Shown here: positions 6,434-24,052 of the stretch, piece after piece | Layout: each line of letters starts with the position of its first letter | Numbering within the stretch: the first letter of the stretch is position 1 | Assembly: GCF_004102025.1 (NCBI RefSeq) | Contig: NZ_CP025228.1 | Coordinates: forward strand, 868,001-932,000 | DNA length: 64,000 nucleotides | Source: Actinomyces qiguomingii | Lineage (GTDB): Bacteria; Actinomycetota; Actinomycetes; Actinomycetales; Actinomycetaceae | Reading direction: 5' to 3' | Position numbers and translations under genes: made by a program | Notes under the pieces: generated by a model | Told to the model about the DNA's origin: nothing | What the model saw: only the letters and a program-made list of their open reading frames with translations | Databases searched by the model: none

Positions 6434-7966
6434 GTGAGGATTACCTTCATGGAGTGGCATCCGGCGCTGACGACTGTGTGGGTCGTCTTGGAGTACGTGA
6501 TCAAGTTCGTGGCTCTGGGAACCGTTCCCGAGAATCGCCGTCCGTCGTCATCAACCGCCTGGCTGCTGCTGATTTTCCTGCTCCCCGTCATCGGACTGCC
6601 GCTATACGTGTTCCTGGGCAGTCCCCGCGTGCACGGCAAGCGCTACCAGCAGCAGCTCGTGGCCAACGCCACCGTCAACGAGTTCACCGCGGACATGCCC
6701 GCGGCCCCCGCAGGGGCCCGGCCCTCACCCCACCTCGGCTCGGTGCTGCACATGAACCGCAAACTCACCGGCCTGCCGTGTGTCACCGGTGAGGTTGTGG
6801 CCCTGCACGCGCATGCCGCTCAGACCTACGCCGCCATGGCTCGTGTCATAGACACGGCCAAACATCATGTGCATGTCGAGTTCTACATCCAGAGCTGGGA
6901 TGAGGTAACCGATGTCTTCTACTCCGCGCTCGCCCGTGCCGCCGCCCGGGGGGTGACGGTCCGTCTGCTGGTGGACCACCTCGGATCACGAAAATATCCC
7001 GGTTGGAAGGACTTCGGGAGGCGACTGTCCGACGCGGGCATCCGGTGGCGGCTCATGATGCCGCTGCTGCCGCATAAGCGGCGCTTCCGCAGACCCGATC
7101 TGCGTAATCACCGCAAGGTTCTGGTGGTAGATGGAGAGCGTGCCTTCATCGGCTCCCACAACATTATCGACCCCACCTACAGGCTGCGCTCCAACCTGCG
7201 AGCCGGACGCGTCTGGGCGGACCTTTCCGTGGAAGTCACCGGGGACATCGTGATTGAGGCCGAAACGATTTTTGCGATGGACTGGTTCTTCGAGTCCGGC
7301 GAAATCCTCCGGGTGCAAGACGCCCTCCCAGGCGCTCCCGATGTGCATGAGCTGCTGGCCCGCCGTCCCTCGGTCGGCACTCCGGCGCCGCAGCCGGGCC
7401 GTCCCGACGCCGTCGTCAACGCCATGCAGCTGGTGCCTTCCGGCCCCGGCTACCCCACCGAGCCGAATCTGCGCATGTTCCTATCCCTAATCGAGAACGC
7501 CACTCGGCGCGTGTCAATCACGAGCCCATACTTCGTTCCAGACGAGGCGCTGCTGGCCGCCATGACCACTGCCGCCTACCGTGGCGTAGACGTGGAGCTG
7601 TTCGTCGGCAAGGAGTCCGACCACCTGATCGTCAACCACGCGCAGCGCTCCTATTACAGCGCCCTGCTTGCTGCCGGCGTGCGTATCTATCGTTATCCGG
7701 CTCCCACCGTACTGCATGCCAAGTACATGACTGTCGACGGTGACGTGGCGGTGATCGGCAGCGCGAATATGGACTTCCGATCCTTCGCCCTGAACTACGA
7801 GATGATGCTGCTCGCCTTCGGCGGCGATCTGGATGACCTGCTGCGGGAGAATGATGCCTACTACCGCCGCGTGTCCACCGAACTCACCGCCGAGGAGTGG
7901 GCTAAGGAGCCCTGGTGGCGGCGGTACGTGGACAATGTCTGTCGGCTGGTCTCCGCCGTTCTGTGA
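6434..7966 (+). CDS. cls: Cardiolipin synthase (phospholipase D family)
   Basis: 510 residues. Two N-terminal membrane segments (about 10-30 and 42-62) precede two phospholipase-D HKD motifs: H226-x-K228-x4-D233 (HRKVLVVD) and H428-x-K430-x4-D435 (HAKYMTVD), each followed by IGS.N. This is the architecture of ClsA-type cardiolipin synthase, which joins two phosphatidylglycerols at the membrane; some actinobacterial members use CDP-diacylglycerol instead. GTG at 6434 has GGTGAGGA before it; ATG at 6449 (GAGGA ten bases before) is an equally plausible start. The gene is followed by a 22-bp-period repeat array. Confidence 0.9.
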   Translation: MRITFMEWHPALTTVWVVLEYVIKFVALGTVPENRRPSSSTAWLLLIFLLPVIGLPLYVFLGSPRVHGKRYQQQLVANATVNEFTADMPAAPAGARPSPHLGSVLHMNRKLTGLPCVTGEVVALHAHAAQTYAAMARVIDTAKHHVHVEFYIQSWDEVTDVFYSALARAAARGVTVRLLVDHLGSRKYPGWKDFGRRLSDAGIRWRLMMPLLPHKRRFRRPDLRNHRKVLVVDGERAFIGSHNIIDPTYRLRSNLRAGRVWADLSVEVTGDIVIEAETIFAMDWFFESGEILRVQDALPGAPDVHELLARRPSVGTPAPQPGRPDAVVNAMQLVPSGPGYPTEPNLRMFLSLIENATRRVSITSPYFVPDEALLAAMTTAAYRGVDVELFVGKESDHLIVNHAQRSYYSALLAAGVRIYRYPAPTVLHAKYMTVDGDVAVIGSANMDFRSFALNYEMMLLAFGGDLDDLLRENDAYYRRVSTELTAEEWAKEPWWRRYVDNVCRLVSAVL

Positions 7967-8014
7967 CGGTCGCCCACGCCCCCTCCCGGCACCCCTCCCC
8001 GCGCCCCTCTCCGC

Positions 8015-8114
8015 GAGTTCGGTCGATATGACTGCCGAGTTCGGTCGATATGACTGCCGAGTTCGGTCGGAATGACTGCCGAGTTCGGTCGGAATGACTG
8101 CCGAGTTCGGTCGG
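8015..8114 (+). repeat. Family-D 22-bp-period array (4.5 units)
   Basis: Units start at 8015, 8037, 8059, 8081 and 8103. Each begins GAGTTCGGTCG and goes on with ATATGACTGCC (first two) or GAATGACTGCC (next two). The core CCGAGTTCGG is a near-palindrome. The array fills the gap between the convergent cls gene and response-regulator gene. It is not a CRISPR array because no unique spacers separate the units. Confidence 0.9.
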
Positions 8115-8118
8115 CGGC

Positions 8119-8904
8119 TCACGCCCGAGCGCGCAGCCAGGTCAGGACGGCGCGCACGCGCCGGTTGCCCTCCTCGGGCGGCAGGTCCAGCTTGGCGAAA
8201 ATACTCGCGACGTGCTTGGCCACCGCGCCGTCGGACACCACCAGGCGCTCGGCCACCTGCGAGTTGGACAGTCCCTCGGCCATGAGGGCGAGCACCTCCT
8301 GCTCACGCGGGGTCAGGCGCGCCAGCGCCGTGCCTTCCACGTCCCGGCCGCCTCCGTCCGCTCTGTCCGCAAGCCCTGCGCGCCGTCCATCGGCGGCATG
8401 CGTGGCCCCCTGCGCGGGCTCGAGGCCACCACGCCCGGCGAAGTTCGAGGACGAGCCCGCACGCATGAGCCGCGCCAGCACCTCCGGGTCGACCACCACC
8501 CCGCCCGCGGCCACGACGTCCAGGCTGTGCAGGAAGTCGCTGACCCGGCCGACGCGCTCCTTGAGCAGATAGCCGGCCCCACCCGCACCGGCGTCGGGGC
8601 CATCCAGCAGCTCACGCAGATACGGTCCGGCCACGTAGGCGGAAAGGACGACGACGGGCAGCCCCGGATAAGCGGCACGCAGGTCGATGGCGGCGCGCAG
8701 ACCGTCATCGGTGCCGGTGGGCGGCATGCGCACATCCGTGACGACCACGTCGGGCGGCGCCCCCGCCATGGCCAGCCGCTCGACCTCCTCCCGTAGCGCA
8801 TCGGCGTCCGCCACCTGCGCCACCACCTCGTATCCCGCCGCCGCGAGCAGCCCGGCCAGGCCCTCGCGCAGGAGGGCGGCGTCGTCGGCCAGCACGATTC
8901 TCAT
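8119..8904 (-). CDS. LuxR-type (NarL/FixJ) response regulator
   Basis: 261 residues from ATG 8904, which has AGGATG nine bases upstream; ATG 8913 is the alternative. The receiver domain has the acidic pair in VLADDA, the phosphoacceptor Asp57 in VVVTDVRMP, and a conserved lysine in YLLKERVG. The C-terminal LuxR helix-turn-helix starts at LTPREQEVLALMAEGLSN. The linker between them is unusually long (about 45 residues, Gly/Ala/Asp-rich). The sensor kinase lies 99 bp upstream on the same strand, so the two form a two-component pair. Confidence 0.92.
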   Translation of the reverse strand: MRIVLADDAALLREGLAGLLAAAGYEVVAQVADADALREEVERLAMAGAPPDVVVTDVRMPPTGTDDGLRAAIDLRAAYPGLPVVVLSAYVAGPYLRELLDGPDAGAGGAGYLLKERVGRVSDFLHSLDVVAAGGVVVDPEVLARLMRAGSSSNFAGRGGLEPAQGATHAADGRRAGLADRADGGGRDVEGTALARLTPREQEVLALMAEGLSNSQVAERLVVSDGAVAKHVASIFAKLDLPPEEGNRRVRAVLTWLRARA

Positions 8905-9003
8905 GTGACACATCCTGCCGCAACCTCAACGACGTCGGGCCTCGCCGGAAGGACGAGGGGTGCGGGACGGGCACGCGCCCGCACCCGGATGCCGCCGGGC
9001 CGC

Positions 9004-10347
9004 TCACTCGCGGGCCCACGGCGGGGTCAGTGGGGCGGTCAGTGTCAACCTGGTGCCGCCTCCCGGGGGCGAGTCGATCAGCAGGCGCCCGCCGATGGAT
9101 TCCACGCGCTGCGTCATACCCGCCAGGCCGGTGGCTCCGGGGGAGTGCGGATCGGCGCCGCCCGCCCCGTCGTCGCCGACGATCACGGTCAGCCCGCCGG
9201 CGGTCACGGACATCTCCACCCGGGCCCGCGCCGTGGGTCCGGCGTACTTGGCGGCGTTGGTGAGCGCCTCGGCGACCGCGAAGTAGACGGTGGTCGTCAC
9301 CGGCGAGGTGACGGCACCAAGATCGTCGTCCTCACCGCTGACGGTCACGATGGTGGGCAGGGGCGCCCGCCCGGCGAGGTCCTGCAGCGCCGGGGCCAGG
9401 CCGCGCTCGGTCAGAATCGCCGGACGGATGCCGTGCACTGTCTCCCGCAGACTGCGCAGGGAGGCCTCGACCTCCTCCTGCGCGGACCGCACCTGCGCGC
9501 GCAGGGCCGCAAGCGACTCGGCCCTACGGGCGGCGGAATCGGGTATGACGCCGGCGTCCGCCTCACGACCGCCGGGTGGGTCGATCTCCGCCAGTCGACC
9601 GGCGTGAAGCTCGGCCGTGCCCAGGTGCATGGCCGCCGCCACCAGCCGTTGCTGTGCGCCGTCGTGCAGTTCACGCTCGATACGCGCGCGTTCGGCGTCG
9701 AAGGCGTCCACCAGTGTGGCCCGGCCGCTGGCCAGGTGGCCGACCTCAGCGGTCAGAGCGGCCAGGCGGGCCTCCGCGTCGGGGCGGGACAGGGCCGCGG
9801 TCATGCGGCAACGCAGGTGCCCCATGGCCAACAACAGGCCCAACAGGACGATGAGACCGGCCAGCGCGATCGGCTCCAGCCACCAGACCTGACCGAAGGA
9901 GGTGGCCGTGTACGACCAGCCGACGAGGTCGCGCAGGCTGACTTCCAGCGGCTGCTCGGGCGAGGCGATGAAGGGACCGACGGCCAGAATCCCGACCACA
10001 ATGCCGCCCACGCCGGCGACGAAGAAATCGATCACACTGAACACCGCGCCGCCCAGAACCAGGGGAACGTCCTGCTTCCAGAAGTCGGCCTGGACCACAC
10101 GGCCCCACAACCACGCCCACCGCCTCTTTCCGGGCGGCGCGGCGCTCGGGGCATCCGCTCCGGTGAAACGCGCCAAGCCCCGGCTGGCCTCGGCCAACAG
10201 CGGGAGAGTCAGATGGAAGGCCAGCAGCAGAGGAATCGCGGCGACCACCAGGGGCAGGAATGCCACGGCGTGAAGGAGTTCAATGAGCACCAGCATGCCG
10301 CGGCGCCCCCACCGGTGGGCGCGACCGGCGTCGGCTTGGACAGGCAT
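9004..10347 (-). CDS. Sensor histidine kinase (HisKA_3/NarL partner)
   Basis: 447 residues from ATG 10347, the first start that keeps the divergent promoter gap. There are about four hydrophobic segments (20-50, 95-125, 157-176), then a coiled coil and the HisKA_3 box ERARIERELHDGAQQRL with His228 as phosphorylation site. The ATPase domain shows AVAEALTNAAKYA (N box), GDDGAGGA (D box) and GLAGMTQRVESIGG. It phosphorylates the regulator encoded just downstream. The ABC transporter genes on the other strand, 141 bp away, are the likeliest target, as in bacitracin-type or lantibiotic-sensing modules; the signal is unknown. Confidence 0.88.
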   Translation of the reverse strand: MPVQADAGRAHRWGRRGMLVLIELLHAVAFLPLVVAAIPLLLAFHLTLPLLAEASRGLARFTGADAPSAAPPGKRRWAWLWGRVVQADFWKQDVPLVLGGAVFSVIDFFVAGVGGIVVGILAVGPFIASPEQPLEVSLRDLVGWSYTATSFGQVWWLEPIALAGLIVLLGLLLAMGHLRCRMTAALSRPDAEARLAALTAEVGHLASGRATLVDAFDAERARIERELHDGAQQRLVAAAMHLGTAELHAGRLAEIDPPGGREADAGVIPDSAARRAESLAALRAQVRSAQEEVEASLRSLRETVHGIRPAILTERGLAPALQDLAGRAPLPTIVTVSGEDDDLGAVTSPVTTTVYFAVAEALTNAAKYAGPTARARVEMSVTAGGLTVIVGDDGAGGADPHSPGATGLAGMTQRVESIGGRLLIDSPPGGGTRLTLTAPLTPPWARE

Positions 10348-10488
10348 GTGGCAGACCCTACGAGTCGGCGCCGCGCCGAGCACGGGTGCCAGCGCCCACA
10401 CGGGGTGGTTCTGGCACCACCGGGCGGCCCGCAGGACGGGTGCCGGCGCCAGTGACCGGACCCGGGCAACTCGGGTTTCCTGATTGCC

Positions 10489-11361
10489 ATGGCAGCCTCT
10501 CCATCCCGAACCGACCCGGAACCGACGCAACTCGCACCGGCGGTGCAGACAGCGGCGCGTGGCCCCGCAGCCGCCCCGCTCACCGGCCCGCCCGGCGGAC
10601 CGGCAATCCGGCACGAGGCGCCGGCAATCGACGTGGCCGCACTCCGGCGCGTATTCACGCTGCCCGGGCGGCGTCGTGCGGCCGTCACCGCCGTCGACGA
10701 CGTCGCCCTAAACTTGCAGGCGGGGAGTTTCACCGCCCTGGTCGGGGCCTCCGGTTGCGGGAAGTCGACGCTGCTGCAGTGCATCGCGGGACTGGACCGG
10801 CCCACCTCCGGGACGGTGCGGCTCCTCGGCACCGAAACCACCGCCCTGCGCCCCCGCGACGCCGCCCGCTTCCGAGCCGATCACGTCGGCTTCATCTTCC
10901 AGGACGACAACCTCGTCTCGGCCCTGTCCGCCAGGGACAACGTCGCCCTGCCCGGGCGGCTGCGGCGGCGCCCACTGCCGCGCACCGCCGTCGATGCGGC
11001 GCTGGAACGACTGGGGCTGACCGGCCAGGCCCACCACCTGCCCCACGAACTCAGCGGCGGGGAACGGCAGCGGGTCGCCATCGCCCGGGTCCTGGCCTCC
11101 CGGCCGGCGCTCGTGTTCGCCGACGAGCCCACCGCGGCACTCGACGTCGCCGCGGGCGCGGAGGTGCTGGACTGGCTGGGCGAGTTGAGCGCCCTGGGAA
11201 CGACGGTGCTCATGGTCACGCACGACGCCTCAGCCGCGGCGCGCGCCGACGAAGTCCTGGTAATGGCAGCGGGTCGCCTCATGACCGAGATGCCGGGCGG
11301 TGACGCCGACGCCATCGCCAGGGCCGTTCTGCACACCCGTGGGGCGGGTGAGGTGCGATGA
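10489..11361 (+). CDS. ABC transporter ATP-binding protein (MacB/LolD type)
   Basis: 290 residues. Walker A GASGCGKST at about 86-94, signature LSGGERQRV, Walker B ALVFADEPTAALD and an H-loop MVTHDAS are all intact. About 45 Pro/Ala-rich residues precede the domain, so a later start is possible. It overlaps the permease gene by four bases (ATGA), which indicates a translationally coupled pair. This exporter class pairs with FtsX-like permeases and handles lipids, peptides or antibiotics by a mechanical mechanism. Probably controlled by the divergent two-component system. Confidence 0.92.
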   Translation: MAASPSRTDPEPTQLAPAVQTAARGPAAAPLTGPPGGPAIRHEAPAIDVAALRRVFTLPGRRRAAVTAVDDVALNLQAGSFTALVGASGCGKSTLLQCIAGLDRPTSGTVRLLGTETTALRPRDAARFRADHVGFIFQDDNLVSALSARDNVALPGRLRRRPLPRTAVDAALERLGLTGQAHHLPHELSGGERQRVAIARVLASRPALVFADEPTAALDVAAGAEVLDWLGELSALGTTVLMVTHDASAAARADEVLVMAAGRLMTEMPGGDADAIARAVLHTRGAGEVR

Positions 11362-13957: not shown

Positions 13958-14437
13958 ATGAGTGACGCTCCACGTACCGGCCTGTTCTCCTGGCTCTTCG
14001 GACGCGACAAGTCCAAGGCCACGTCGGCGCCCGCGACAGCGGCCGACCCAGCCACGGGGAACACCGCTGCCGCGAACGCTCCCGCCGGGGCGGGCGCCGG
14101 CATCGGAACAGTCGAAGTTTCAGCCGAAGAACTGGATCTCATTACCCGTGATCAGTCGATTGCAGCGATCAAGGCCTATCGCGAGCGCACCGGCGTGGGC
14201 CTGAAGGCCGCCAAGACCGCGATTGACGCGGCGGCCGCCGAACTCGCGGCGGGCCGCGCCCCGGCCGTCGCCTCCCCAGCTGCCGGACCTGCCTCCTCTT
14301 TCCCGCCGCCGAACCCGGAGGAGATCGAGTTGGTCACTTCTGGGCGGCTGATTGTGGCGATCAAGGCCTACCGCGGCCGCACCGGTGCCGACCTGAAGAC
14401 CGCCAAGGCCGTCATGGATGCGATCGGTGCCAACTGA
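13958..14437 (+). CDS. Protein with two ribosomal L7/L12 C-terminal-like modules
   Basis: 159 residues. The first ~45 residues are Ala/Pro-rich and start MSDAPRTGLFSWLFGRDKSK. Two copies of an L7/L12-like helix motif follow: residues about 58-90 (LITRDQSIAAIKAYRERTGV then GLKAAKTAID) and about 123-155 (LVTSGRLIVAIKAYRGRTGA then DLKTAKAVMD). In ribosomal L7/L12 this surface binds translation factors. The protein lacks the L7/L12 N-terminal dimerization domain, so it is not the ribosomal protein. Function unknown; no neighbour helps. Confidence 0.7.
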   Translation: MSDAPRTGLFSWLFGRDKSKATSAPATAADPATGNTAAANAPAGAGAGIGTVEVSAEELDLITRDQSIAAIKAYRERTGVGLKAAKTAIDAAAAELAAGRAPAVASPAAGPASSFPPPNPEEIELVTSGRLIVAIKAYRGRTGADLKTAKAVMDAIGAN

Positions 14438-14557: not shown

Positions 14558-14677
14558 TCAGACCTTGGCGAGCAGTTTGCTGATGCGCTGCACGCTGACC
14601 TTGCGGGCGGTGCGGAGCGTCTGCGCGAATAGGCTCACGCGCAGCTCCTCAATCAGCCAGTGCGCCTCGGTCAGCAC
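14558..14677 (-). repeat. Duplicated 3' end of hrpA (left flank of island)
   Basis: 120 bp matching 19583-19702, the last codons of hrpA, at 116 of 120 positions by hand count (four substitutions, no gaps). It still encodes the hrpA C-terminal peptide EELRVSLFAQTL and the hrpA stop. Beyond 14677 the similarity ends abruptly. The copies flank the 14.7-19.5 kb island as direct repeats, like an attachment site or a recombination scar. Confidence 0.9.
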
Positions 14678-14773
14678 CGCCTGCCAGCCGAAGTCTGGAA
14701 ATGGCCCGACGATCTGGATCAGGACGCTGCTGTGCTGACCCCGAGACTTGTGAGGAGAGCAACATAAACTGGC

Positions 14774-14802
14774 TTGACGCATACCTGACACGGTGGTAGC
14801 TT
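14774..14802 (+). promoter_or_regulatory. Candidate sigma-70-type promoter of the island operon
   Basis: TTGACG (14774-14779), a 17-bp spacer, and TAGCTT (14797-14802). It lies 52 bp before the ATG at 14854 and in the proper orientation for the six-gene island operon. The -10 box is only a partial match. Confidence 0.4.
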
Positions 14803-14853
14803 CCAATCTGCCTAGCGAGCTGCTTGGCCCCACATCCCATGATAAGGACTGTT

Positions 14854-16027
14854 ATGACGCAGTTTGCCCCCCCCAGCACCTGGTGACCAGACTGGCGTAG
14901 TCGACTACTTCAAGGAACTCGGGATCGAGCGCAGTGCCTCGATCGACGAGATCCAGGACAAACTCCGCCGCACCCGTGCCCAATGGGAGAAGCGTGCTTC
15001 ACTTGCCGGGAAGCGCGGCGATGCGATCCGGCAGCAGTTATCAATGATTGATGCTGCCAGCCAGGTGTTCGCCGATGAGGACTCCATGCTTCGTTATCGG
15101 AGGCAACTTGGCGCCGCACCCTCCTCTGAAGACGAGACGAAAGTAGATTGGGTTGCCAGGGCATGGAACTACTACTTCAGCGAAGATTACGGGCCGGCAA
15201 GCGTTTCCGCAAGAAAGGCGCGCCAGCACGATGGAGATGATCCAACCGCCTACGTTGTGTCTGCCTGGATCGAGATGGCCGATGGCGATTCCAGGCGCGC
15301 TGAGGAATACGCCTCGGAGGCCTACGTTCTTGACGAGCAGGGCGACGACACAGTTGAAGTGCACGAGGTGCGCGGCGCGACTTTCATCGCGAATGAGAAA
15401 TATGAGAAGGCGATCTCGAGTCTGGAGCGAGCGCTCAAACGTGCTCCTGAGCCTTACAAGCCCGAGATCTATGCTCGTATGGCGCAGGCGCAGATCGCCT
15501 TAGGAAACGCACAGAGTGGATGGAACTCCTGCCTCTCCGGGCTGTCCCTGCATGGGTTGAAGGCGCAGCCCGTAATACGCGAGCGACTGATTGGCTACGC
15601 GTGTAAGGCTGTTATCGTCATATACGCCGATAAAGACAACCAGGACGTGACTGGGTCGCTCAGCACGCTGAAGGAGCAGATCACCGAAAGCGAGGCTGAC
15701 TCTGCCGCGAAAATGACGATATTCAACTGTATCAACGAATGTCTTGAAGTCGTCAGCTTGGATAATGACACGAAGGAGAAGCCGGAAGAGCCCTGGGGAT
15801 TCCCGCTTAAGCTTTGCGGAGCAACCGTGATCGCCTGGATTGCGATGTTCGCCGCACCGAACACCGTTACCATATTACTTGCATTCGCAATTCTTGGGAT
15901 TCTCGGGGTCTGGTTCTACATGATGTCTCAGCAGAAGCAGGCGATCGAAGAGTACGGCGATAAGGTTCGTCGCTACAATGAGCTGCAGACAAAGCTCCAA
16001 CAGGAAGCCACGCGTGCGTTGAAGTAG
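14854..16027 (+). CDS. J-domain-like / repeat / two-TM membrane protein; frame broken at a C8 tract
   Basis: ATG at 14854 has AAGGA five bases upstream, but its frame ends at a TGA after ten codons. With one C less in the run of eight (14867-14874) it would read MTQFAPPAPGDQTGVVDYFK and join the long frame, about 390 residues. Otherwise only a poor TTG (14864) could start it. Residues about 12-80 resemble a J domain (VVDYFKELGIERSASIDEI, later FADEDSMLRYRRQLG) but lack HPD. A helical-repeat region (about 90-240) with TPR-like pairs follows, then two membrane segments (about 313-355) and a charged coiled tail. First gene of the island; probably the membrane anchor or scaffold of the neighbouring ATPase. 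Confidence 0.75.
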
Positions 16028-16054
16028 TCGACGCTGTCGCGAAAGGAGCGTTTT

Positions 16055-18400
16055 ATGCTTCGTGTATGCCGGAGGGTGAACTTGGGCGCCGGATCCGTGC
16101 CATTCATTGGTGCATCCAATGTTTGGGTCGATGACTCCCTCACGGACTCCAGCTCGATCGCATTTGTGCAGTTCTTGACTGCCGCCGCAATCCAGGGGAC
16201 AGCTGCTGGCCAGTTGGAGGTGATCGTATACGATGACGCGCTGTCGGGCATGGCGTCACCGTTCCAAGACATCAATAATGGGGGAGAAAAAATACTAAGA
16301 GTCGTGAATGACTCGAAGGAATTGTCACAAATACTTCGGTATCTGCGAGGACATATTCAAGGTGTCCAAAACGTGATCCAGGGGCGCACTCCTTCATTGA
16401 CGGAGTTCCGGGACGATGTGCAGTTCCCAATCGAGGGATATAAGCTTGTCGTGCTTGCTACCGACTTCGGATTACTAGACGAAGCTATACAGAATGAGGT
16501 TGTGACGCTCTCCAAGGTTGGTCCGCAGAATGGAGTCACGTTCCTGATCCATTCGATGGATCTCGGGGTGAACGAGTACATACTGGACTTGTTCGAACGC
16601 CTGAATGTCAACGGAAATGTTGTCCGCTCTGCCGGAGGGCACGTCTTGGGAAATTTCGCGCCAGAGAATGCGCAGTCCCTGATCGCAACGGCTCGTCGTA
16701 TAAGCGCTGAAGTGGCGAGGCAGTCGGTTGCGGTCGTGCCGTTCAGTGATATCGAGCCCGCCGACGAGACCTGGCGGTATTCGTCCGCTGAGGGGATAAC
16801 GTTCACAATCGGCCGGTACGGGCTTGCGCCTATATCTATCACGCTTGGTGACGAGGTAAATCAACGTCACAACGCGTTGATTACAGGTGCCGTTGGACAG
16901 GGAAAATCGAATCTCATCTCGGTGATAGTGCACTCCTTGTGTGGTCGGTACTCACCCGAAGAACTGCAGTTGTATCTCCTTGACTTCAAAGAAGGTGTCA
17001 CTCTTCAGAGGTTCGCGGGTGAGGGGAATGGAGAATTTCTCCCCCATGCTAGAGTAATCGGTTTGGAAGCAGATCGTGAATTTGGCCTGTCGGTGCTGCA
17101 GCACCTATTCGCCGTGTATGTCGAACGGATGCGGACATTTAAGTCCGTTGGCGTGCAGAGCATTCGCGAGTATCGTCGTGTGCCTCGGAGCGTTGCGATG
17201 CCGCGTATACTACTTATAGTAGATGAATTCCAGATGATGTTCGCGGAACGTGATCGCGTCTCCGATGAGATAGCCGATCTTCTTCAAAAGGCGGTACGGC
17301 TGTTTCGTGCCGCCGGTATACACATCATACTGGCATCTCAAACTATAGGTGGAAACGCCTCGCTGATGGGCGCCGCCGCGGAGGGGCTGTTCGGTCAGGT
17401 CCCGGTACGAATTGCGCTAAAAAATTCATTGGCTGAGTCGCACGCTACTCTGGGCGCGAACAATTCGGCTGCGTCATACTTGCGCAGCAGGGAGGCAGTT
17501 GTCAATCTTGATTACGGTGAACCCGCGGCAAATAAGAAGATCGCAATTGCGTTTGCCGACGAGGCTGTGCTCAAGCCGAGGCGACATGAATGGTTATCTC
17601 TGTTTCAGGGGCAGCGCAGGCCGTATGTGTTTCGGGGTGAGGAGGCTCGTTCTCTGGTTGACGATTGGGGACTGGCAGAGCATACGGTACATGAGGACTC
17701 TCTTCCAACTGCATGGATAGGCCAACAGCTCGATGTCGACGGCACTTGTGTCCAGGCCGACATGTCTCGCGGTCTAGGACGCAATATTGCGCTTGTCGGT
17801 CCTACGGATGCGGTCGTGCCGCTGCTATCCATCGTCACCTCATTGGTGCTAACGGCACGTAAGGATTGCCCTCCTGAGGTCGCCATCCTCGATCTGTCGA
17901 ATTCGATGCACGACACTGTTGGGGATGATGAGAACTGGGTGGAGGACCTACGTTCTTGTGGTGCCGTTGTCCATGCAATAGATGGTAGCGGCGTTGAAGT
18001 TTATCTAGAGGAATTGATTCGCACTGTGAGTTCAGGGGGTGCAGGGGAGCGCGAGGTATATGTTGTCGGAATTGGGATGGAACGTTTGAGGTCTTCCGCG
18101 ACCTTTGAGTCGCTCATTGCGGAAGGTCCGCTCCGAGGTATTCATTTCGTTTGTTGGTGGTCGAAGTTCGGGGCCTTTCAGGATTTGGTCGGATTTGGTG
18201 GTGCTGCACATTTCGACGTCAAGCTCGGATATGGCTTGGATAGGCAGTCCGCGCGCCGTTTGTTCGATGACCCGCTGCTCGAATGGAGCCCTCGCGATAA
18301 TCGAATGCTCGCATGGGATGCCTTAGGTATGTCGCAGCCGTGTGCAATTATTCCGTATACGGCCGCCCCATCCTTTGAGCAACTTTGTTCAGGCATATAG
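16055..18400 (+). CDS. FtsK/SpoIIIE (HerA-superfamily) ATPase of the island
   Basis: 781 residues without membrane segments. The N-terminal ~240 residues are non-catalytic. The motor has Walker A GAVGQGKS at 278-285, Walker B ILLIVDEF with Asp390-Glu391, and the sensor-like stretch HIILASQTIGG. A second module after about residue 570 keeps the fold pattern (NIALVGPTDAV) but has lost Walker A lysine and the acidic pair, as in degenerate modules of EccC/EssC. AAAGGAG lies seven bases before the ATG. Base composition is visibly AT-richer than the rest of the window. FtsK-like motors move DNA or, in type VII secretion, protein; which applies here is unknown. Confidence 0.85.
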   Translation: MLRVCRRVNLGAGSVPFIGASNVWVDDSLTDSSSIAFVQFLTAAAIQGTAAGQLEVIVYDDALSGMASPFQDINNGGEKILRVVNDSKELSQILRYLRGHIQGVQNVIQGRTPSLTEFRDDVQFPIEGYKLVVLATDFGLLDEAIQNEVVTLSKVGPQNGVTFLIHSMDLGVNEYILDLFERLNVNGNVVRSAGGHVLGNFAPENAQSLIATARRISAEVARQSVAVVPFSDIEPADETWRYSSAEGITFTIGRYGLAPISITLGDEVNQRHNALITGAVGQGKSNLISVIVHSLCGRYSPEELQLYLLDFKEGVTLQRFAGEGNGEFLPHARVIGLEADREFGLSVLQHLFAVYVERMRTFKSVGVQSIREYRRVPRSVAMPRILLIVDEFQMMFAERDRVSDEIADLLQKAVRLFRAAGIHIILASQTIGGNASLMGAAAEGLFGQVPVRIALKNSLAESHATLGANNSAASYLRSREAVVNLDYGEPAANKKIAIAFADEAVLKPRRHEWLSLFQGQRRPYVFRGEEARSLVDDWGLAEHTVHEDSLPTAWIGQQLDVDGTCVQADMSRGLGRNIALVGPTDAVVPLLSIVTSLVLTARKDCPPEVAILDLSNSMHDTVGDDENWVEDLRSCGAVVHAIDGSGVEVYLEELIRTVSSGGAGEREVYVVGIGMERLRSSATFESLIAEGPLRGIHFVCWWSKFGAFQDLVGFGGAAHFDVKLGYGLDRQSARRLFDDPLLEWSPRDNRMLAWDALGMSQPCAIIPYTAAPSFEQLCSGI

Positions 18401-18425
18401 CGATCGTGTATAGGAGGGTAAAGCG

Positions 18426-18683
18426 ATGTCGCTGCTGCAACAGGCCATCGCGCAGGTGTCCCATCTGCGTAGGCAGCTTGATGACCAAGAGGTTCTGATT
18501 AATGGGTTTCTTCGACGTAATTCTGAGCAAATGCGTCAGGTTCGGGATGCGTTGAGCGGAAGTAATACGGGATATGACCGTAGAATGATGACCGCGCTGC
18601 AGCAGGCGGATGACTCGCTAAAGAAGTCTCTGCAACAGGTGAGGCGTGCTAAGGATGCGCTCTTCCGCATTGAGCAGCTATGA
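18426..18683 (+). CDS. Small helical-hairpin protein 1 of the island
   Basis: 85 residues, predicted almost wholly helical: a helix from SLLQQAIAQVSHLRRQLDDQ, a turn at GSNTG (about 45-49), and a second helix with ALQQADDSLKKSLQQVRRAK. Size and helix-turn-helix layout resemble WXG100/ESAT-6 secretion substrates, but the WXG turn is replaced by GSNTG and no YxxxD/E tail is present. AGGAGG lies eight bases before the ATG, 25 bp after the ATPase gene. No signal peptide. Function unknown. Confidence 0.7.
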   Translation: MSLLQQAIAQVSHLRRQLDDQEVLINGFLRRNSEQMRQVRDALSGSNTGYDRRMMTALQQADDSLKKSLQQVRRAKDALFRIEQL

Positions 18684-18697
18684 AGGAGGTATAATTC

Positions 18698-18958
18698 GTG
18701 CAGTCGATTCAGGACGTGGTCGATGCCGTCTATCGCGTCAGCACTGATGCCCAGGATGTGGTAACGCGTTCGGTGATTTGTGCAGACGCGCTCGGAAAGC
18801 ATTCTCGATCGCTGATGGCGGTGGTTCGAGGATCGAAGACCGGTGAGCAAGCGGTCGCCGAGATCGACTCGGCTCAACGGGCGGTTAGGGATGGTGCGGC
18901 GAGGCTACAGGGACTCATCTCCGTTAGCGAGCTGTTCATCGCTGACGTGACGAAGTGA
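18698..18958 (+). CDS. Small helical-hairpin protein 2 of the island
   Basis: 86 residues from GTG, with AAGGAGGT seven bases upstream. Two helices (DVVDAVYRVSTDAQDVVTRS and AEIDSAQRAVRDGAARLQGL) flank a GSKTG turn (about 44-48) at the same position as GSNTG in the preceding protein, so the two look like distant paralogues. No cysteine pairs, no signal peptide, one Cys. Like its neighbour it resembles a WXG100 hairpin in shape only. Probably acts with the ATPase, as substrate, adaptor or subunit. Confidence 0.7.
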   Translation: MQSIQDVVDAVYRVSTDAQDVVTRSVICADALGKHSRSLMAVVRGSKTGEQAVAEIDSAQRAVRDGAARLQGLISVSELFIADVTK

Positions 18959-18964
18959 GCTGTT

Positions 18965-19279
18965 ATGGGATGGGAAGTCGATCCTGTGCGAGAACGGCTT
19001 CGCAAAGAGGCTTGCGATGGCTTGTTGGTTGCGCACGACATGCTCACTGTGCTCGGCCGTCAGTGCACGGACCTTTGTGTTAGTATTCAGGCGGCGGTTG
19101 GTGGCACGCCTGGTGGCGAAGAGATGTATGGTGCCGCGTCTCGGGCGGCGGCTCAGATCCATAATTGCTCAACGTTTTGCGGAGATGCGGCAAGTGGCGC
19201 TTCCCGGATTAGCGTGTTGAGGTGGGTGCCTGACGCTGAGGTCGGTAATGATCCGGGTGGTGGTCCCAGTGGGCGTTGA
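18965..19279 (+). CDS. Small cysteine-containing protein 3 of the island
   Basis: 104 residues, six bases after the preceding stop, with a weak ribosome site. It begins MGWEVDPVRERLRKEACDGL and is largely helical with a Gly-rich break AVGGTPGGEEMYG in the middle. Four cysteines (about 17, 34, 38 and in HNCSTFCG) could bind a metal or form disulfides. The tail is Gly/Pro-rich. It overlaps the next frame by 32 bases. Not recognised; its place in the operon suggests a shared complex with the ATPase. Confidence 0.6.
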   Translation: MGWEVDPVRERLRKEACDGLLVAHDMLTVLGRQCTDLCVSIQAAVGGTPGGEEMYGAASRAAAQIHNCSTFCGDAASGASRISVLRWVPDAEVGNDPGGGPSGR

Positions 19280-19535
19280 TTTCGCAGCTGTAGGCGACAG
19301 TCTCCGTGCGATTGAGGCGAGCGCGGGTGATTCGCAGGGTATCGCTCGGGGGCTGTTTAGTGTATTTGGTGTGTTGGACGGCGCCGAGCGTGCTCTTGTC
19401 GCTCTTTCTGGCGACGATGAGGCCGACAGCGCGAGGCTACTGATGGAGCGCACGGGCCGCGAACTCGAAAGTGCCATGGCGGAGGTTGATCGTGTTGTCC
19501 GGATGGCGCGCGAACTCAGACAGCGCATCGAATAA
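19248..19535 (+). CDS. Small helical protein 4 of the island
   Basis: 95 residues from ATG 19248 (GAGGT upstream), overlapping the previous gene by 32 bases; GTG 19269 is an alternative start. It reads MIRVVVPVGVDFAAVGDSLR, then helical stretches with SGDDEAD near the middle and ELESAMAEVDRVVRMARELR at the end. Similar in size and helical hairpin layout to proteins 1 and 2. It is the last island gene; 47 bp later hrpA ends on the other strand. Not recognised. Confidence 0.6.
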   Translation: MIRVVVPVGVDFAAVGDSLRAIEASAGDSQGIARGLFSVFGVLDGAERALVALSGDDEADSARLLMERTGRELESAMAEVDRVVRMARELRQRIE

Positions 19536-19582: not shown

Positions 19583-22500
19583 TCAGACCTTGGCGAGCAG
19601 CTTGCTGATGCGTTGCACGCTGACCTTGCGGGCGGTGCCGAGCGTCTGCGCGAACAGGCTCACGCGCAGCTCCTCAATCAGCCAGTGCGCCTCGGTCAGC
19701 ACGGCTTCCCGTTCGGGGTCCGCCGGTAGCGCCGCGGCCCGGGCCTTGGCGTCGGATAGAAGCCGCTCCGCCTGCTCCACCTGGTAGGCGAGCGCCGCAT
19801 CCTGGCTGGGGGAGGACTCCGCCTTTACCACCCGCATCGCCAGCGCCTGCAGATACCGGGGCAGGTGCGGGAGCTGCTCCGGCGGGGTGGCGGCGATGAA
19901 GCCGTCCTTCACCAGCGCCGCCGCATGCTCGCGCACCTGCTGCAGCGTATTCAGCAGCGCCAGCGAGGTGTGGGCCGACACCTCCCGCTCCACCTCCCGC
20001 TGCGCGGCCAGCGTCTTGGCGGCGATCTGCACAATCCGATAGACCTCATCCTCCAGCTCCCGGCGCATGACGGCCACCAGTTCCTCGAACACGGATTGCT
20101 CGCGCACGCCGGCCAGGGGCGTGCGCCGCGCCACAGCCCACCGGTCGGCTACTACCCGGGCGGCCGCCAGCTGAATGTCCTCCACCAGCGCCTCGGTGCT
20201 CCGGTATGGGCTTGCCGCCAAAGTCAGCGTCTCGGTGGGATTCCACCGGGAGGTGATGCGGGCCGTGGGAAGGGCGGTGCGCGCCAGGGCCAGCGCCGTC
20301 ACTCCGTCACCGTGCGCGCGCTCCTGGGCGACGGCGTCGGGCAGGATCCGCAGGTCTGCGCGGCGCGCACCGGTCGCCACCAGGGCCGGGTAACCGCGCA
20401 CCACCAGACCGGCCGTGCCCGGGGTCTCGATCGTGGCCGGAATAGTGGAGCGCTCCGCGCCCTCCAGGCCGGTGACGCCCTTGGGCCAGTCCGTCAGTCC
20501 CGCACGCTCGGCCAAGGCCTGCCCGACGCCGCGCATCTTCTTCGCACCACCGCTCGCCGCTCCCGCGGCGTGACCGTCGGCGCCGCCCCTGCTGCCCCCC
20601 GGTGCAACCGCGCCCGCACCGCGCCGCTTGCCGCGCCCGCCGCGGCGTCGGCCCTGCGCCCGTTGCGCGTCGGCCATGGCCTGCGCGATCGCCCCATGTA
20701 CGGCGTCGCGCACGGCCTCCTCGGTGCGGCCCGCCTGACGGCGCTGCAACACCACCAGGTCCTTGTCCCGGTCCAGCTCCCGACCGGCGCCGTCCACGGC
20801 CACGAAGGCTATGCGCAGGTGGTCGGGCAGTCGCTCGGCCGCCTCCTCCCAGTCGGCCTCACTGATCTCCACCTGCCGCAGGCGCCGCACCGCATCCGCG
20901 AAGGCCTCCCGGAAGGGGACCTGCGGCGCCGACGGCGCCCCCGCACCCCCGGCCGCGCCGGGGACGTCCCGGCGGATCGCCTCCCACACCTGCGCCCCGA
21001 CGTCGGGCGCGGGCACCAGCGCCCGACGCACCCGCTTGGGCAGGGCGCGGATGGTGGCCACCGCCAGCTCGGGCCGCAGCCCGGGAACCAGCCAGTCAAA
21101 GCCGACCGGCTCCAGGCGCCCCAGTACCTCCACTGGAACCAGCACACTCACGCCGTCGTCCGGGTCGCCCGGCTCGAACACGTAGTCCAGGCCGAGGGTG
21201 AGGTCCCCCTGCACCCAGGCATCCGGGTAGCCAGCGGTGTCATCCCCGCCGGGCAGCAGCAGCTCGCGGGTGAAGTCGAACAGGCCGGGACGGTTGCGGC
21301 GCTCCCGCTTCCACCAGACGTCGAAGTCGTTCGCGCCGTAGATGTCATCGGGCAGGCGGTCATCGTAGAAGTCGAACAGGGCCTCGTCGCTGGCCAGCAG
21401 CCCGTGCTCGCGGCGCCGCTGCTCTACGTCGGCCAGCTCCTCCAACAGCTCCCGGTTACGCCCCACGAAGCCGTGCCGGGCGTGCCAGCCGCCCTCCACC
21501 AGCCCGGAGCGGATGAACATCTCCCGCGCCAACTCGCGCGCATCGGCCGTGCCGACCGAGGCGAGCGTGGCCGGGCGGTCGGCCACCAGGGTCATCCCGT
21601 ACAGCAGCAGCTTCTCGTGCACCATGGCGGCGCCGCGGCGCGTGGACCAGTACGGCTCCCCGTACACCCGGTGCAGCAGCCCGGCCGCCCCGGCCGCCTC
21701 CTCGATCCAGCGGGCATCCACCTTGGCGACGGTGCGGGCGAACAGCCGGGAGGTCTCCACCAGCTCCGCCGTCATCACCCAGTCGTAGCTCTTGCGCCGC
21801 AGCCCCGAGCCCGGCCAGATCACGAAGTGACTGCCGCGGGCGCCCGCATATTCGCGGCGGCGCTCGTCCCAGGTACCCACGTTGGAAAGCAGCCCCACCA
21901 GCAGGGAGCGGTGGATGGCGTCGGCGCTGGGCGTGTCCGCACTGCGCCCCAGGGCGACTACGGCGGCCGCCACGTCCCCGTGGGCGATGGTGGCCGCCTG
22001 CGTGCCCGGCGCCAGGCCGGCGGCGGCCGCGCGCACGGCGCTCGCGGTGGGCAGGTCCACGGGGGCGGCGGCCAGCCCCAGCGGGCGGGCCAGTTGCCGC
22101 AGCTGGTTGTACACGTCCTGCCACTCGCGCACTCGCAGGTAATGGAGGAACTCGGAGCGGCACATGCGTCGGAAGGCGGAGCCGGACAGGTCGCGCTGCT
22201 GGGTGCGCAGGTAGCGCCACAGGTTCAGGTAGGTCAGGAAGTCACTGGTCGGTTCGGCGAAGCGCCGGTGCAGGGCGTCGGCGGCCTCCTGATGCTCGGC
22301 CGGGCGCTCGCGCACGTCCTGCATGGACAGCGCCGCCACAATCACCATGACCTCGCTGACGCAGCCGAGCTCACCGGCCTGAAGCAGCATGCGTCCCAGC
22401 CGCGGGTCGATGGGCAGGCGGGCCAGGTGCCGACCCACCCCGGTCAGTCGTGGCCCGCCGACGCCGTCGCCCCGCCCGCTCCGACGCCGCCCCGAGCCCT

Positions 22501-24052
22501 CGCGCCCGGAAGTCTCAATGGCGCCGATCTCGCCCAGCAGCTGGATGCCGTCGCGTACGGCGCGGGCGTCGGGGGCATCCAGGAAGGGGAAGTCCTGCAC
22601 ATCCCCCAGGCCGAGTGCGGCCATTTGCAGGATGACCGAGGCCAGGGAGGTGCGCAGGATCTCCGGTTCGGTGTACTCCGGGCGCGCTTCGAAGTCGGAC
22701 TGGGAGTACAGGCGGATGGCGATGCCGTCGGCGACGCGTCCGCAGCGCCCGGAGCGCTGGTTGGCGCTGGCGCGGCTGACCGGCTCGATCGGCAGGCGCT
22801 GCACCTTGGTGCGGTTGGAGTAGCGGGAGATGCGTGCCAGCCCGGGGTCGATGACGTAGCGGATGCCGGGCACGGTCAGGGAGGTCTCGGCCACGTTGGT
22901 GGCCAGCACGATGCGGCGGCAGGTGTGCGCCTCGAAGACGCGGTGCTGCTCGGCGGTGGACAGACGGGAGAACAACGGCACCACCTCGACCGCGCCGGGC
23001 GTGGAGGTGCGCCCGTGGGGGGTGTAGCGCGAACCCAGATGGTCGATGAGGGCCGACTCGGTGTCGCGAATGTCCCGCTCACCGGCCAGGAAGACCAGGA
23101 TGTCGCCGCTGCCGGCGGCCATGAGCTCGTCGACGGCGTCGAGGATGCCGGTGACCTGGTCGCGCTCTGTCTCCGGCGTGGGGGGCGTCGCCTCGGTGCC
23201 CTGTCGGCCCCGGGCAGTGGGGGAGGAGCCGGCTGCAGTGGGGGAGAATCCGGCGGCGTCGGGGCCGTCGGGGTCCATGGGGTCGGGGACGAGTGGCCGG
23301 TAGCGGATCTCCACCGGGTAGGTGCGCCCTGACACCTCGATCACGGGAGCAGCGGAGCCCTGGCCGAAATGGGCGGCGAAGCGCTCGGAGTCGATGGTGG
23401 CGGAGGTGATGATGACCTTCAGGTCCGGGCGCTGGGGGAGGAGCCGGGCCAGGTAACCGAGGATGAAGTCGATGTTCAGGCTGCGCTCATGCGCCTCGTC
23501 CACGATGATGGTGTCGTAGCGGCGCAGCAGCGGGTCGGACTGGATCTCCGCCAGCAGGATGCCGTCGGTCATGAGTTTGACCAGCGTGCCCGGGCCGGTC
23601 TCCTCGGTGAAGCGCACCTGGTAGCCGACCACGCCGTCCGGGCCGATGGGGGTGGACAGCTCGTAGGCGATGCGTTCGGCCACCGAGCGGGCGGCGATGC
23701 GCCGCGGCTGGGTATGACCGATCATACCGGTGATGCCGCGGCCCAACTCCAGGCAGATCTTGGGCAGCTGGGTGGTTTTGCCGGAGCCGGTCTCCCCGGC
23801 CACGATCACCACCTGGTTGTCGCGGATGGCGGCGGCGATCTCCTCCCGGCGGGCACTGACGGGCAGCTCCTCGGGGTAGGTGATCACCGGGACGGCGGTG
23901 CGGCGGGATTCAACCTGCTCGGGGGTGAAGCCCCGCCACTGGCGCCGACCGCGCTGGGGGCGCGATCGGCGGGGGCGGCGTCCCCGCCTGCCATCGCCGT
24001 TTCCGGTTTCGGGGTGGCCCGCACGCCGGGTAGGTCGCTTGTTGTCACTCAT
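19583..24052 (-). CDS. hrpA: ATP-dependent RNA helicase HrpA (DEAH box)
   Basis: 1489 residues. Motor motifs in order: GETGSGKTTQLP (I), HTQPRRIAA (Ia), DEAHERS (II), ITSATIDSE (III), NVAETSLTVPG (V), NQRSGRCGR (VI). HA2 and OB-fold regions and the long DUF3418 C-terminal part follow, as in E. coli HrpA (about 1300 residues). It probably resolves stalled ribosomes or structured RNA in the cytoplasm. An Arg/Gly-rich start and an inserted RRGGRGKRRG-like patch (about residue 1140) add length. Its last 120 bp are duplicated at 14558-14677. Confidence 0.95.
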   Translation of the reverse strand: MSDNKRPTRRAGHPETGNGDGRRGRRPRRSRPQRGRRQWRGFTPEQVESRRTAVPVITYPEELPVSARREEIAAAIRDNQVVIVAGETGSGKTTQLPKICLELGRGITGMIGHTQPRRIAARSVAERIAYELSTPIGPDGVVGYQVRFTEETGPGTLVKLMTDGILLAEIQSDPLLRRYDTIIVDEAHERSLNIDFILGYLARLLPQRPDLKVIITSATIDSERFAAHFGQGSAAPVIEVSGRTYPVEIRYRPLVPDPMDPDGPDAAGFSPTAAGSSPTARGRQGTEATPPTPETERDQVTGILDAVDELMAAGSGDILVFLAGERDIRDTESALIDHLGSRYTPHGRTSTPGAVEVVPLFSRLSTAEQHRVFEAHTCRRIVLATNVAETSLTVPGIRYVIDPGLARISRYSNRTKVQRLPIEPVSRASANQRSGRCGRVADGIAIRLYSQSDFEARPEYTEPEILRTSLASVILQMAALGLGDVQDFPFLDAPDARAVRDGIQLLGEIGAIETSGREGSGRRRSGRGDGVGGPRLTGVGRHLARLPIDPRLGRMLLQAGELGCVSEVMVIVAALSMQDVRERPAEHQEAADALHRRFAEPTSDFLTYLNLWRYLRTQQRDLSGSAFRRMCRSEFLHYLRVREWQDVYNQLRQLARPLGLAAAPVDLPTASAVRAAAAGLAPGTQAATIAHGDVAAAVVALGRSADTPSADAIHRSLLVGLLSNVGTWDERRREYAGARGSHFVIWPGSGLRRKSYDWVMTAELVETSRLFARTVAKVDARWIEEAAGAAGLLHRVYGEPYWSTRRGAAMVHEKLLLYGMTLVADRPATLASVGTADARELAREMFIRSGLVEGGWHARHGFVGRNRELLEELADVEQRRREHGLLASDEALFDFYDDRLPDDIYGANDFDVWWKRERRNRPGLFDFTRELLLPGGDDTAGYPDAWVQGDLTLGLDYVFEPGDPDDGVSVLVPVEVLGRLEPVGFDWLVPGLRPELAVATIRALPKRVRRALVPAPDVGAQVWEAIRRDVPGAAGGAGAPSAPQVPFREAFADAVRRLRQVEISEADWEEAAERLPDHLRIAFVAVDGAGRELDRDKDLVVLQRRQAGRTEEAVRDAVHGAIAQAMADAQRAQGRRRGGRGKRRGAGAVAPGGSRGGADGHAAGAASGGAKKMRGVGQALAERAGLTDWPKGVTGLEGAERSTIPATIETPGTAGLVVRGYPALVATGARRADLRILPDAVAQERAHGDGVTALALARTALPTARITSRWNPTETLTLAASPYRSTEALVEDIQLAAARVVADRWAVARRTPLAGVREQSVFEELVAVMRRELEDEVYRIVQIAAKTLAAQREVEREVSAHTSLALLNTLQQVREHAAALVKDGFIAATPPEQLPHLPRYLQALAMRVVKAESSPSQDAALAYQVEQAERLLSDAKARAAALPADPEREAVLTEAHWLIEELRVSLFAQTLGTARKVSVQRISKLLAKV

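Follow-up and report, generated by a model that had tools for sequence, protein, structure and literature searches.

A type-VII-like operon with a J-like/tetratricopeptide membrane protein in Actinomyces qiguomingii, a candidate export system for polymorphic toxins

Introduction

The T7SSa to T7SSj subtypes of the type VII secretion system (T7SS) are described as having a membrane-bound motor with four NTPase domains (TsxC), a WXG100 protein (TsxA), and mostly a ubiquitin-like protein (TsxB), which in the available text belongs to most subtypes but not to T7SSd (PMC11217815). A different arrangement is described here for a six-gene operon at positions 14864 to 19535 of a 64,000-nucleotide stretch of Actinomyces qiguomingii DNA (NZ_CP025228.1, positions 868,001 to 932,000), referred to as the window. 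The operon encodes a J-like protein with a tetratricopeptide repeat (TPR) and a C-terminal transmembrane (TM) part, an EccC/EssC-like ATPase of the FtsK superfamily (the motor), and four small proteins, s1 to s4. It is read here, with a probability of roughly 0.7, as a type-VII-like export system for polymorphic toxins in which the J-like/TPR/membrane protein replaces the usual membrane parts.

The operon shares with T7SSa to T7SSj, as far as the available text describes them, an EccC-type motor, small helical partners, and candidate toxin substrates with immunity; the TsjD protein of T7SSj has a predicted tetratricopeptide domain (PMC11217815). None of the six genes encodes a ubiquitin-like TsxB. 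Because the motor is not membrane-bound and neither a WXG100 nor a ubiquitin-like protein was found, the operon is not filed as a T7SS, though it appears T7SS-like in its working. The terms DnaJ, J-domain, TPR, DnaK, Hsp70, and Actinomyces have no occurrence in the available text of the same source.

The closest counterpart in print, as far as the accessible sections go, is the soluble EssC-like/WXG100 module of CoCoNuT loci (PMC11090510). Its ATPase has three modules, of which only the middle one is predicted to be active, and no membrane domains; WXG100-type small proteins and a linked nuclease fusion accompany it. That module carries an N-terminal coiled coil, WXG100 proteins with the motif, and vWA genes, whereas the present operon lacks coiled coil and WXG and has the J-like/TPR/TM protein, three or four small proteins, and, in sister loci, HSP70 and GrpE. 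The single active middle module is shared (one P-loop in 52 of 52 homologs); the N-terminal coiled coil and the WXG100 motif were not found here. Another published T7SS-like ATPase system also has an active middle domain alone, but occurs in other phyla and with WXG proteins, and "hsp70" and "dnaj" appear 0 times in its main text.

Two further systems are relevant, each as described in the parts available. Tables for the Helicobacter pylori "WXG100 secretion system" cluster give a DnaK homolog, the WXG100 family, FtsK/SpoIIIE, and an HNH/ENDO VII nuclease in neighbouring clusters, but the system is WXG100-type and epsilonproteobacterial, with no mention there of a J-like/TPR protein (PMC4978471). 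The GAP1-N2 HSP70/GrpE/DnaJ-FNIII systems bring HSP70, GrpE, and DnaJ or TPR proteins together in Actinobacteria and Firmicutes, but have GTPases and FNIII repeats at their centre, and an FtsK motor is not mentioned in those parts (PMC7159879). GTPase/GAP1 partners were rejected for the present system, as none was seen in 10 proteins of four related loci (L033, L036, L037, and L038; L numbers denote loci of the comparison). A J/TPR/HSP70-linked EccC-like toxin export operon was not found among the matches listed from the open-licence PMC literature. Within that scope, an earlier sequence-only reading that called the system undescribed holds. The motor architecture is known from other settings; the combination appears new.

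Results

The ATPase motor

The motor gene (16055-18400, + strand) encodes 781 amino acids. PF01580 matches the protein with 63.8 bits, in line with the FtsK assignment of the sequence-only reading, which had given it one active and one degenerate module. Three modules are in fact present: module 1 is degenerate, module 2 is active with a P-loop at residue 278, and module 3 is degenerate. Exactly one GxxxxGK[ST] motif is found in each of the 52 aligned homologs. The predicted structure has a mean confidence (pLDDT) of 88.8, begins with module 1, and has EccC (4nh0, E 4.5e-30) as its best Foldseek match, while all five PDB matches of the motor profile at 1e-10 are T7SS ATPases. The structure and the PDB profile matches both show an EccC/EssC-type fold. 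Across 25 ATPase frames (one is only a piece), the 19-residue hydropathy peaks at 1.85.

The curated T7SS models are not reached, at 82.9 of 509 bits for EccCa, 56.8 of 347 for EccCb, and 56.8 of 778 for EssC, and the motor is therefore not a known EccC; had it been one, the earlier reading would have been undone. The curated FtsK model NF007615 gives 17.8 of 1566 bits. Of 7,995 scored sequences, 2,470 are homologs of the motor at E<=1e-3, a count that takes in related motors. In locus L072 (genome G1215, 7654-11311), the ATPase gene lies in two pieces about 1.3 kb apart, perhaps due to an insertion.

The fourth slot and its toxin fusions

The s4 gene (19248-19535, + strand, 95 amino acids) sits in the slot where some relatives carry domain-toxin fusions. 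Judged by eye from relatives, its start may be an internal GTG, giving about 88 amino acids. The fourth slot could be read in 20 close-type loci. Sixteen, the window included, have a lone protein of about 85 residues, and four (L026, L028, L029, and L031) have a fusion of 269 to 396 amino acids. A profile of nine lone Actinomycetota s4 sequences aligns with the N-termini of the four fusions with an hhalign probability of 96.2 (E 2.3e-9). The A5 profile finds the three Actinomycetota s4 proteins kept out of it, and the s4 of L027 and L030 were also located by profile. One genome with the ATPase (G035) was missed by the s4/tag profile, and a longer frame there matched at 2.6e-4.

A search with residues 1 to 95 of the L031 fusion returned 67 proteins. 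Their N-termini form one BLAST cluster, and their C-termini fall into seven clusters and three singletons. Ten of these tag proteins were scanned, and three contain named toxin domains over cut-off (EndoU, SsdA_C, and Tox-REase-5), families that we take to be intercellular polymorphic toxins. The polymorphic-toxin design, a constant N-terminus with a variable toxin C-terminus, is thus present in relatives and not in the window. Two of the 67 seem to share an assembly with ATPase homologs (P0142/P0068 and P0156/P0103), a hint of linkage. The last small-protein domain is also fused in the three sister loci: to an ADP-ribosyltransferase in L070, to a calpain-like protease in L071, and to nothing recognised in L064.

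Behind the L026 fusion is a DUF6301 protein (over cut-off), which presumably has an immunity role. The L031 fusion is followed by a MafI-like protein whose match is below cut-off, and the L028 fusion by a 193-amino-acid protein with no family over cut-off. A second J-like gene or fragment follows the fusion and presumed immunity gene in L028 (4295-5689), L029 (5451-5729), and L031 (6190-6375), as if cassettes had recombined between J-gene copies.

The small proteins s1 to s3

The other small proteins are s1 (18426-18683, 85 amino acids, with a central conserved glycine turn), s2 (18698-18958, 86 amino acids, turn RGSxTG), and s3 (18965-19279, 104 amino acids, turn GGT), all on the + strand. 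The first two are conserved in two phyla, and s3 is conserved more weakly. Iterated profiles over 25 loci of Actinomycetota and Bacillota found s1 in 24, s2 in 25, and s3 in 25. A single protein answers several profiles in L036, L064, L070, and L071, and a distinct s1-s2-s3 triplet is therefore present in 21 of the 25. This tally omits L015/L045 (near copy of L014), L009, L011, L012, and L048 (same loci as L030, L047, L049, and L013), L016 (partial match), and the more distant motors L032, L033, L037, L038, L060, and L061. It retains L008 and L010, which are cut by contig ends, and L072 with its interrupted motor.

The iterated profiles included long overlapping frames and fusions (for s2: L028, L029, L031, L070, and L071), so their E-values are inflated and are replaced by a phylum-split test with hand-picked short members. 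Actinomycetota-only profiles of s1, s2, and s3 each recovered the corresponding protein in all six Bacillota loci. In the reverse direction, Bacillota-only profiles were run on 16 Actinomycetota loci (the close type and L036) and found s2 in all 16 and s1 in 15, with E-values in the window of 9.7e-13 and 1.3e-15, respectively. The Bacillota-only s3 profile found s3 in its expected position in only 5 of these 16 and missed that of the window. The small frames are therefore conserved, s4 least, and the earlier concern that they might not be is answered.

Profile-profile probabilities are 97.5 between s1 and the sister small protein, 94.4 between s2 and the Bacillota s4, and 77.8 between s1 and the Bacillota s4. 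Within the triplet they are 61.3 (s1-s3), 24.3 (s1-s2), and 21.2 (s2-s3), and for the Actinomycetota s4 against s1, s2, and s3 they are 4.4, 36.8, and 2.8. These mixed values make common descent of s1 to s3 and the Bacillota s4 likely on sequence grounds, with the Actinomycetota s4 standing apart. All four proteins are probably helical hairpins.

Membership of s1 to s4 in the WXG100 family is not supported. None matches PF06013 at E<=1, and they are not among the PF06013 matches of their own genome; the sequence-only reading had already noted the absence of WXG motifs. PF06013 is weakly matched by 5 of 17 s1-type members (best 0.0022), and ESAT-6 appears at E 0.18 among coiled coils; a remote sequence relation to WXG100 is weak and unproven. 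Elsewhere in the same genome, WXG100 matches and EccC-like frames of 1384-1385 amino acids are found (G000:C1:602266-608899 and 151743-169600), so a conventional T7SS probably coexists with the operon.

A protein of about 100 amino acids follows the small-protein genes in L007 (4226-4537), L065 (11583-11897), and L071 (12563-12856). The latter two are alike by eye, and the L007 protein matches a stretch of elongation factor Tu at 43.7 bits, far below the cut-off of 452.

The J-like protein, HSP70, and GrpE

The first gene of the island (14864-16027, + strand) encodes the J-like protein of 387 amino acids, whose J-like N-terminus has no HPD. Its TPR part, proposed earlier, is certain, with TPR_2 at 33.3 bits over a cut-off of 27. 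The predicted structure is all-helical (pLDDT 84.1), and the 50 rows listed by the fold search are TPR proteins and large assemblies. The window protein has no PF00226 match at E<=1 in the profile scan. Among its homologs, L037 (28.6) and L084 (35.2) are over the PF00226 cut-off of 27.8, and L036 (23.4) is below it. A hydrophobic peak begins at residue 335 with a 19-residue hydropathy of 2.34, and values of at least 1.9 occur in 18 of the 23 J-like frames, including that of the window. The protein is 82% identical to that of Actinomyces sp. 594, and the ATPase is 85% identical.

The open frame begins at TTG 14864. The start at 14854 given by the sequence-only reading is an ATG in another frame and is not retained. 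The annotation of the Actinomyces sp. 594 protein starts at the same TTG-equivalent residue, and the true start codon is uncertain. In this region (14854-14886) the out-of-frame ATG has a good ribosome site, and the run of eight C at 14867-14874, between the ATG and the J-like frame, is the sole one in the window, where shuffles average 10.66.

Within the stretch examined, 9 of 27 loci (the 25-locus tally plus L037 and L084) contain HSP70 and 8 contain GrpE. In a sister operon on the Rhodococcus pseudokoreensis plasmid NZ_CP070617.1, genes for Hsp70, the TPR (J) protein, GrpE, and FtsK are followed by proteins of 203, 86, 272, and 134 amino acids. The start of the 272-residue protein matches the sister fusion profile at 1.4e-9. 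The HSP70 gene of L071 (4395-5898) is in three pieces by tblastn; the middle piece lies on the other strand, which may reflect an inversion within the gene or an assembly error.

A response regulator and a kinase-like gene lie just upstream of the operon in L026 (4034-7194) and, by eye, in L028 (12784-15817) and L030 (11549-15124). The L026 regulator has Response_reg and GerE over cut-off. Such upstream genes are not found in the window.

Insertion at the 3' end of hrpA and distribution

All six frames at 14864-19535 are open, run in the same direction, and are closely spaced in the list of open reading frames, as the sequence-only reading had it. In the window, the operon was inserted at the 3' end of hrpA as a segment of 5,025 bp. 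The last ~128 nucleotides of hrpA occur as a direct repeat, with a left copy at 14558-14685 (- strand) identical at 121 of 128 nucleotides to the right copy at 19583-19710 (- strand), which is part of the intact hrpA (19583-24052); the copies are 5,025 nucleotides apart, start to start. An hrpA match is present in 48 genomes of the genus, counting the window's own. Empty sites, with a single hrpA end and no operon match in a stretch of about 10 kb, are found in eight of these relatives, comprising six of the closest and two others. In four of them (L117, L118, L119, and L120), the match to the flanking L7/L12-like gene ends about 70-230 nucleotides from the hrpA end, the match in L119 being only 64 nucleotides long. 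The other four gave no match to that gene. No integrase is found among the six genes of the island by profile scan. The L7/L12-C-terminal-domain gene upstream of the island has an internal duplication at 14158-14422 (73 nucleotides, 79%).

The G+C content is 55.6% over 14864-19535 and 72.6% in hrpA. The lowest-G+C stretch of 4,672 nucleotides in the window (14696-19367, 55.3%) overlaps the island, and the lowest clear of it has 63.1%. The low G+C and the resulting suggestion of transfer, both made from sequence earlier, are borne out to the extent that the operon was probably acquired by transfer.

At E<=1e-60, seeds included, ATPase homologs were found in 9 of the 213 genomes in the window's family, 7 of these being of the close type, and in 3 of 396 genomes sampled from the phylum. 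Three further families were picked because a member carried the ATPase: two Clostridia families, with 5 of 300 genomes and 1 of 299, and that of a Propionibacteriaceae metagenome-assembled genome, with 11 of 198. This distribution fits horizontal transfer. Among plasmids, the one of 272 records whose match covers 80% of the motor is the Rhodococcus plasmid. A viral origin was rejected, as the four pattern matches in viral_contigs include no relative and 0 of 176 phage records with a match cover 80% of the motor.

Distant ATPase homologs were seen on a Helicobacter plasmid (L085, 2404-6806) with a weak WXG100 match, a WHH/colicin-DNase protein, and SMI1/KNR4, and on a Caballeronia plasmid (L086, 838-10672) with vWA, WXG100, PP2C, and kinase genes.

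Discussion

Given the toxin fusions of relatives, the operon is best read as exporting tagged polymorphic toxins. Under this reading, an EccC-like ATPase without a membrane anchor, probably hexameric and hydrolysing ATP only in its middle module, would be tethered to the membrane through the J-like/TPR/TM protein. The small proteins, pairing as helical hairpins, would act both as partners in export and as tags for recognition. The s4 protein would be the cargo handle: alone it may be co-exported or act as a plug, and fused to a C-terminal domain it would carry a polymorphic antibacterial toxin, with the immunity gene behind. In sister operons, HSP70 and GrpE would join the J/TPR protein, and their presence there suggests that a dedicated chaperone probably keeps cargo ready for export.

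Several observations weigh against export. The motor has no membrane segment, in contrast to the membrane-bound T7SS motor, it falls short of all curated T7SS models, and no cell-wall-spanning part was seen. The small proteins are without a PF06013 match, in the operon as in the genome-wide scan. The J-like protein lacks HPD, the DnaJ motif, in all 19 loci that cover the loop, and the strong hydrophobic stretch is missing in 5 of 23 frames. Fusions are found in just four of the 20 readable loci, all from the window's genus, and slot 4 is unfused in the window and in the five readable Bacillota loci. Seven of the 10 scanned tag proteins have no toxin family, the EndoU match of the L031 fusion itself is below cut-off (23.9 against 25.3), the fusions of L026, L028, L029, and L064 have no Pfam toxin match, and the C-terminus of the Rhodococcus 272-residue protein matches no Pfam family and hence no toxin. 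By profile, the tag of the Actinomyces fusions matches neither that of the sister clade (probability 0.1) nor the Bacillota s4 (0.6), and the Actinomycetota s4 does not match the Bacillota s4 either (6.9), so a single tag family is valid only within lineages; the tags of the two lineages share slot and design and, from their sequences, are not proven to be one family. The five genome hits of the s4/tag profile are rows of the profile itself, and only its absence elsewhere, in the 43 genus genomes without the close-type ATPase, is informative.

The window copy could be an orphan remnant of a real export system, its toxin lost, and now idle or only protective, which is compatible with the export reading. 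The island has no toxin domain or immunity gene, its genome holds no further s4-like match, and the first start codon is uncertain. This reading is nevertheless unlikely, given six open frames, the high identity to Actinomyces sp. 594 in both large proteins, and the fact that toxin-less copies are usual (16 of 20 close-type loci, the window included). Also unlikely is an intracellular anti-phage or abortive conflict complex, which the motor and the helical proteins would form upon infection to free or switch on a fused nuclease or deaminase inside the cell. The missing membrane segment of the motor and its partial match to PADLOC SspH (70.3 bits) would suit such a complex, but the other five proteins have no PADLOC match save PDC-S02 at E 0.03 for s1, and the C-termini include the presumed intercellular toxin families. 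The DUF6301 protein with its presumed immunity role after one fusion and the hydrophobic stretch in 18 of 23 J-like frames also speak against it. The nearest published ATPase architecture does belong to CoCoNuT conflict loci, but the authors, in the sections available, infer secretion for such ATPases (PMC11090510).

Two other functions are very improbable, and both leave the toxin fusions unexplained. A DNA-moving system for conjugation, segregation, or plasmid coupling is at odds with the FtsK model score, with the absence of a relaxase among the six genes in the profile scan, and with PDB profile matches that are all T7SS at 1e-10. A cytosolic stress or chaperone machine, with J/HSP70 assisting the ATPase in protein extraction, draws on the HSP70 and GrpE counts and on HSP70/GrpE/DnaJ-TPR conflict systems already described, as far as the accessible text goes (PMC7159879), but 18 of the 27 loci, the window among them, have no HSP70 in the stretch examined. 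The sequence-only reading had left export, DNA processing or anti-phage defence, and stress response side by side; export now has strong support from the toxins of relatives and the others gain little. Its picture of a conserved operon that recalls type VII without EccB, EccD, EccE, mycosin, or WXG motifs stands.

A more ambitious form of the export reading is put forward only tentatively, and we consider it rather doubtful. It would be a distinct chaperone-coupled secretion system with an ancestral set of HSP70, GrpE, a J-like/TPR/membrane anchor, a three-module soluble motor, and paralogous non-WXG hairpins, exporting interchangeable antibacterial toxins in Actinomycetota and Bacillota by a membrane path around the J/TPR protein and not through Ecc/Ess/Tsx parts.

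If export is correct, type-VII-like toxin export would need neither WXG100 proteins nor a membrane-built motor, and an HSP70/J module could serve. Many proteins now annotated as "FtsK/SpoIIIE domain-containing" or hypothetical would gain a function, and the tag would offer a sequence handle with which to look for antibacterial toxins in bacteria of the mouth and gut.

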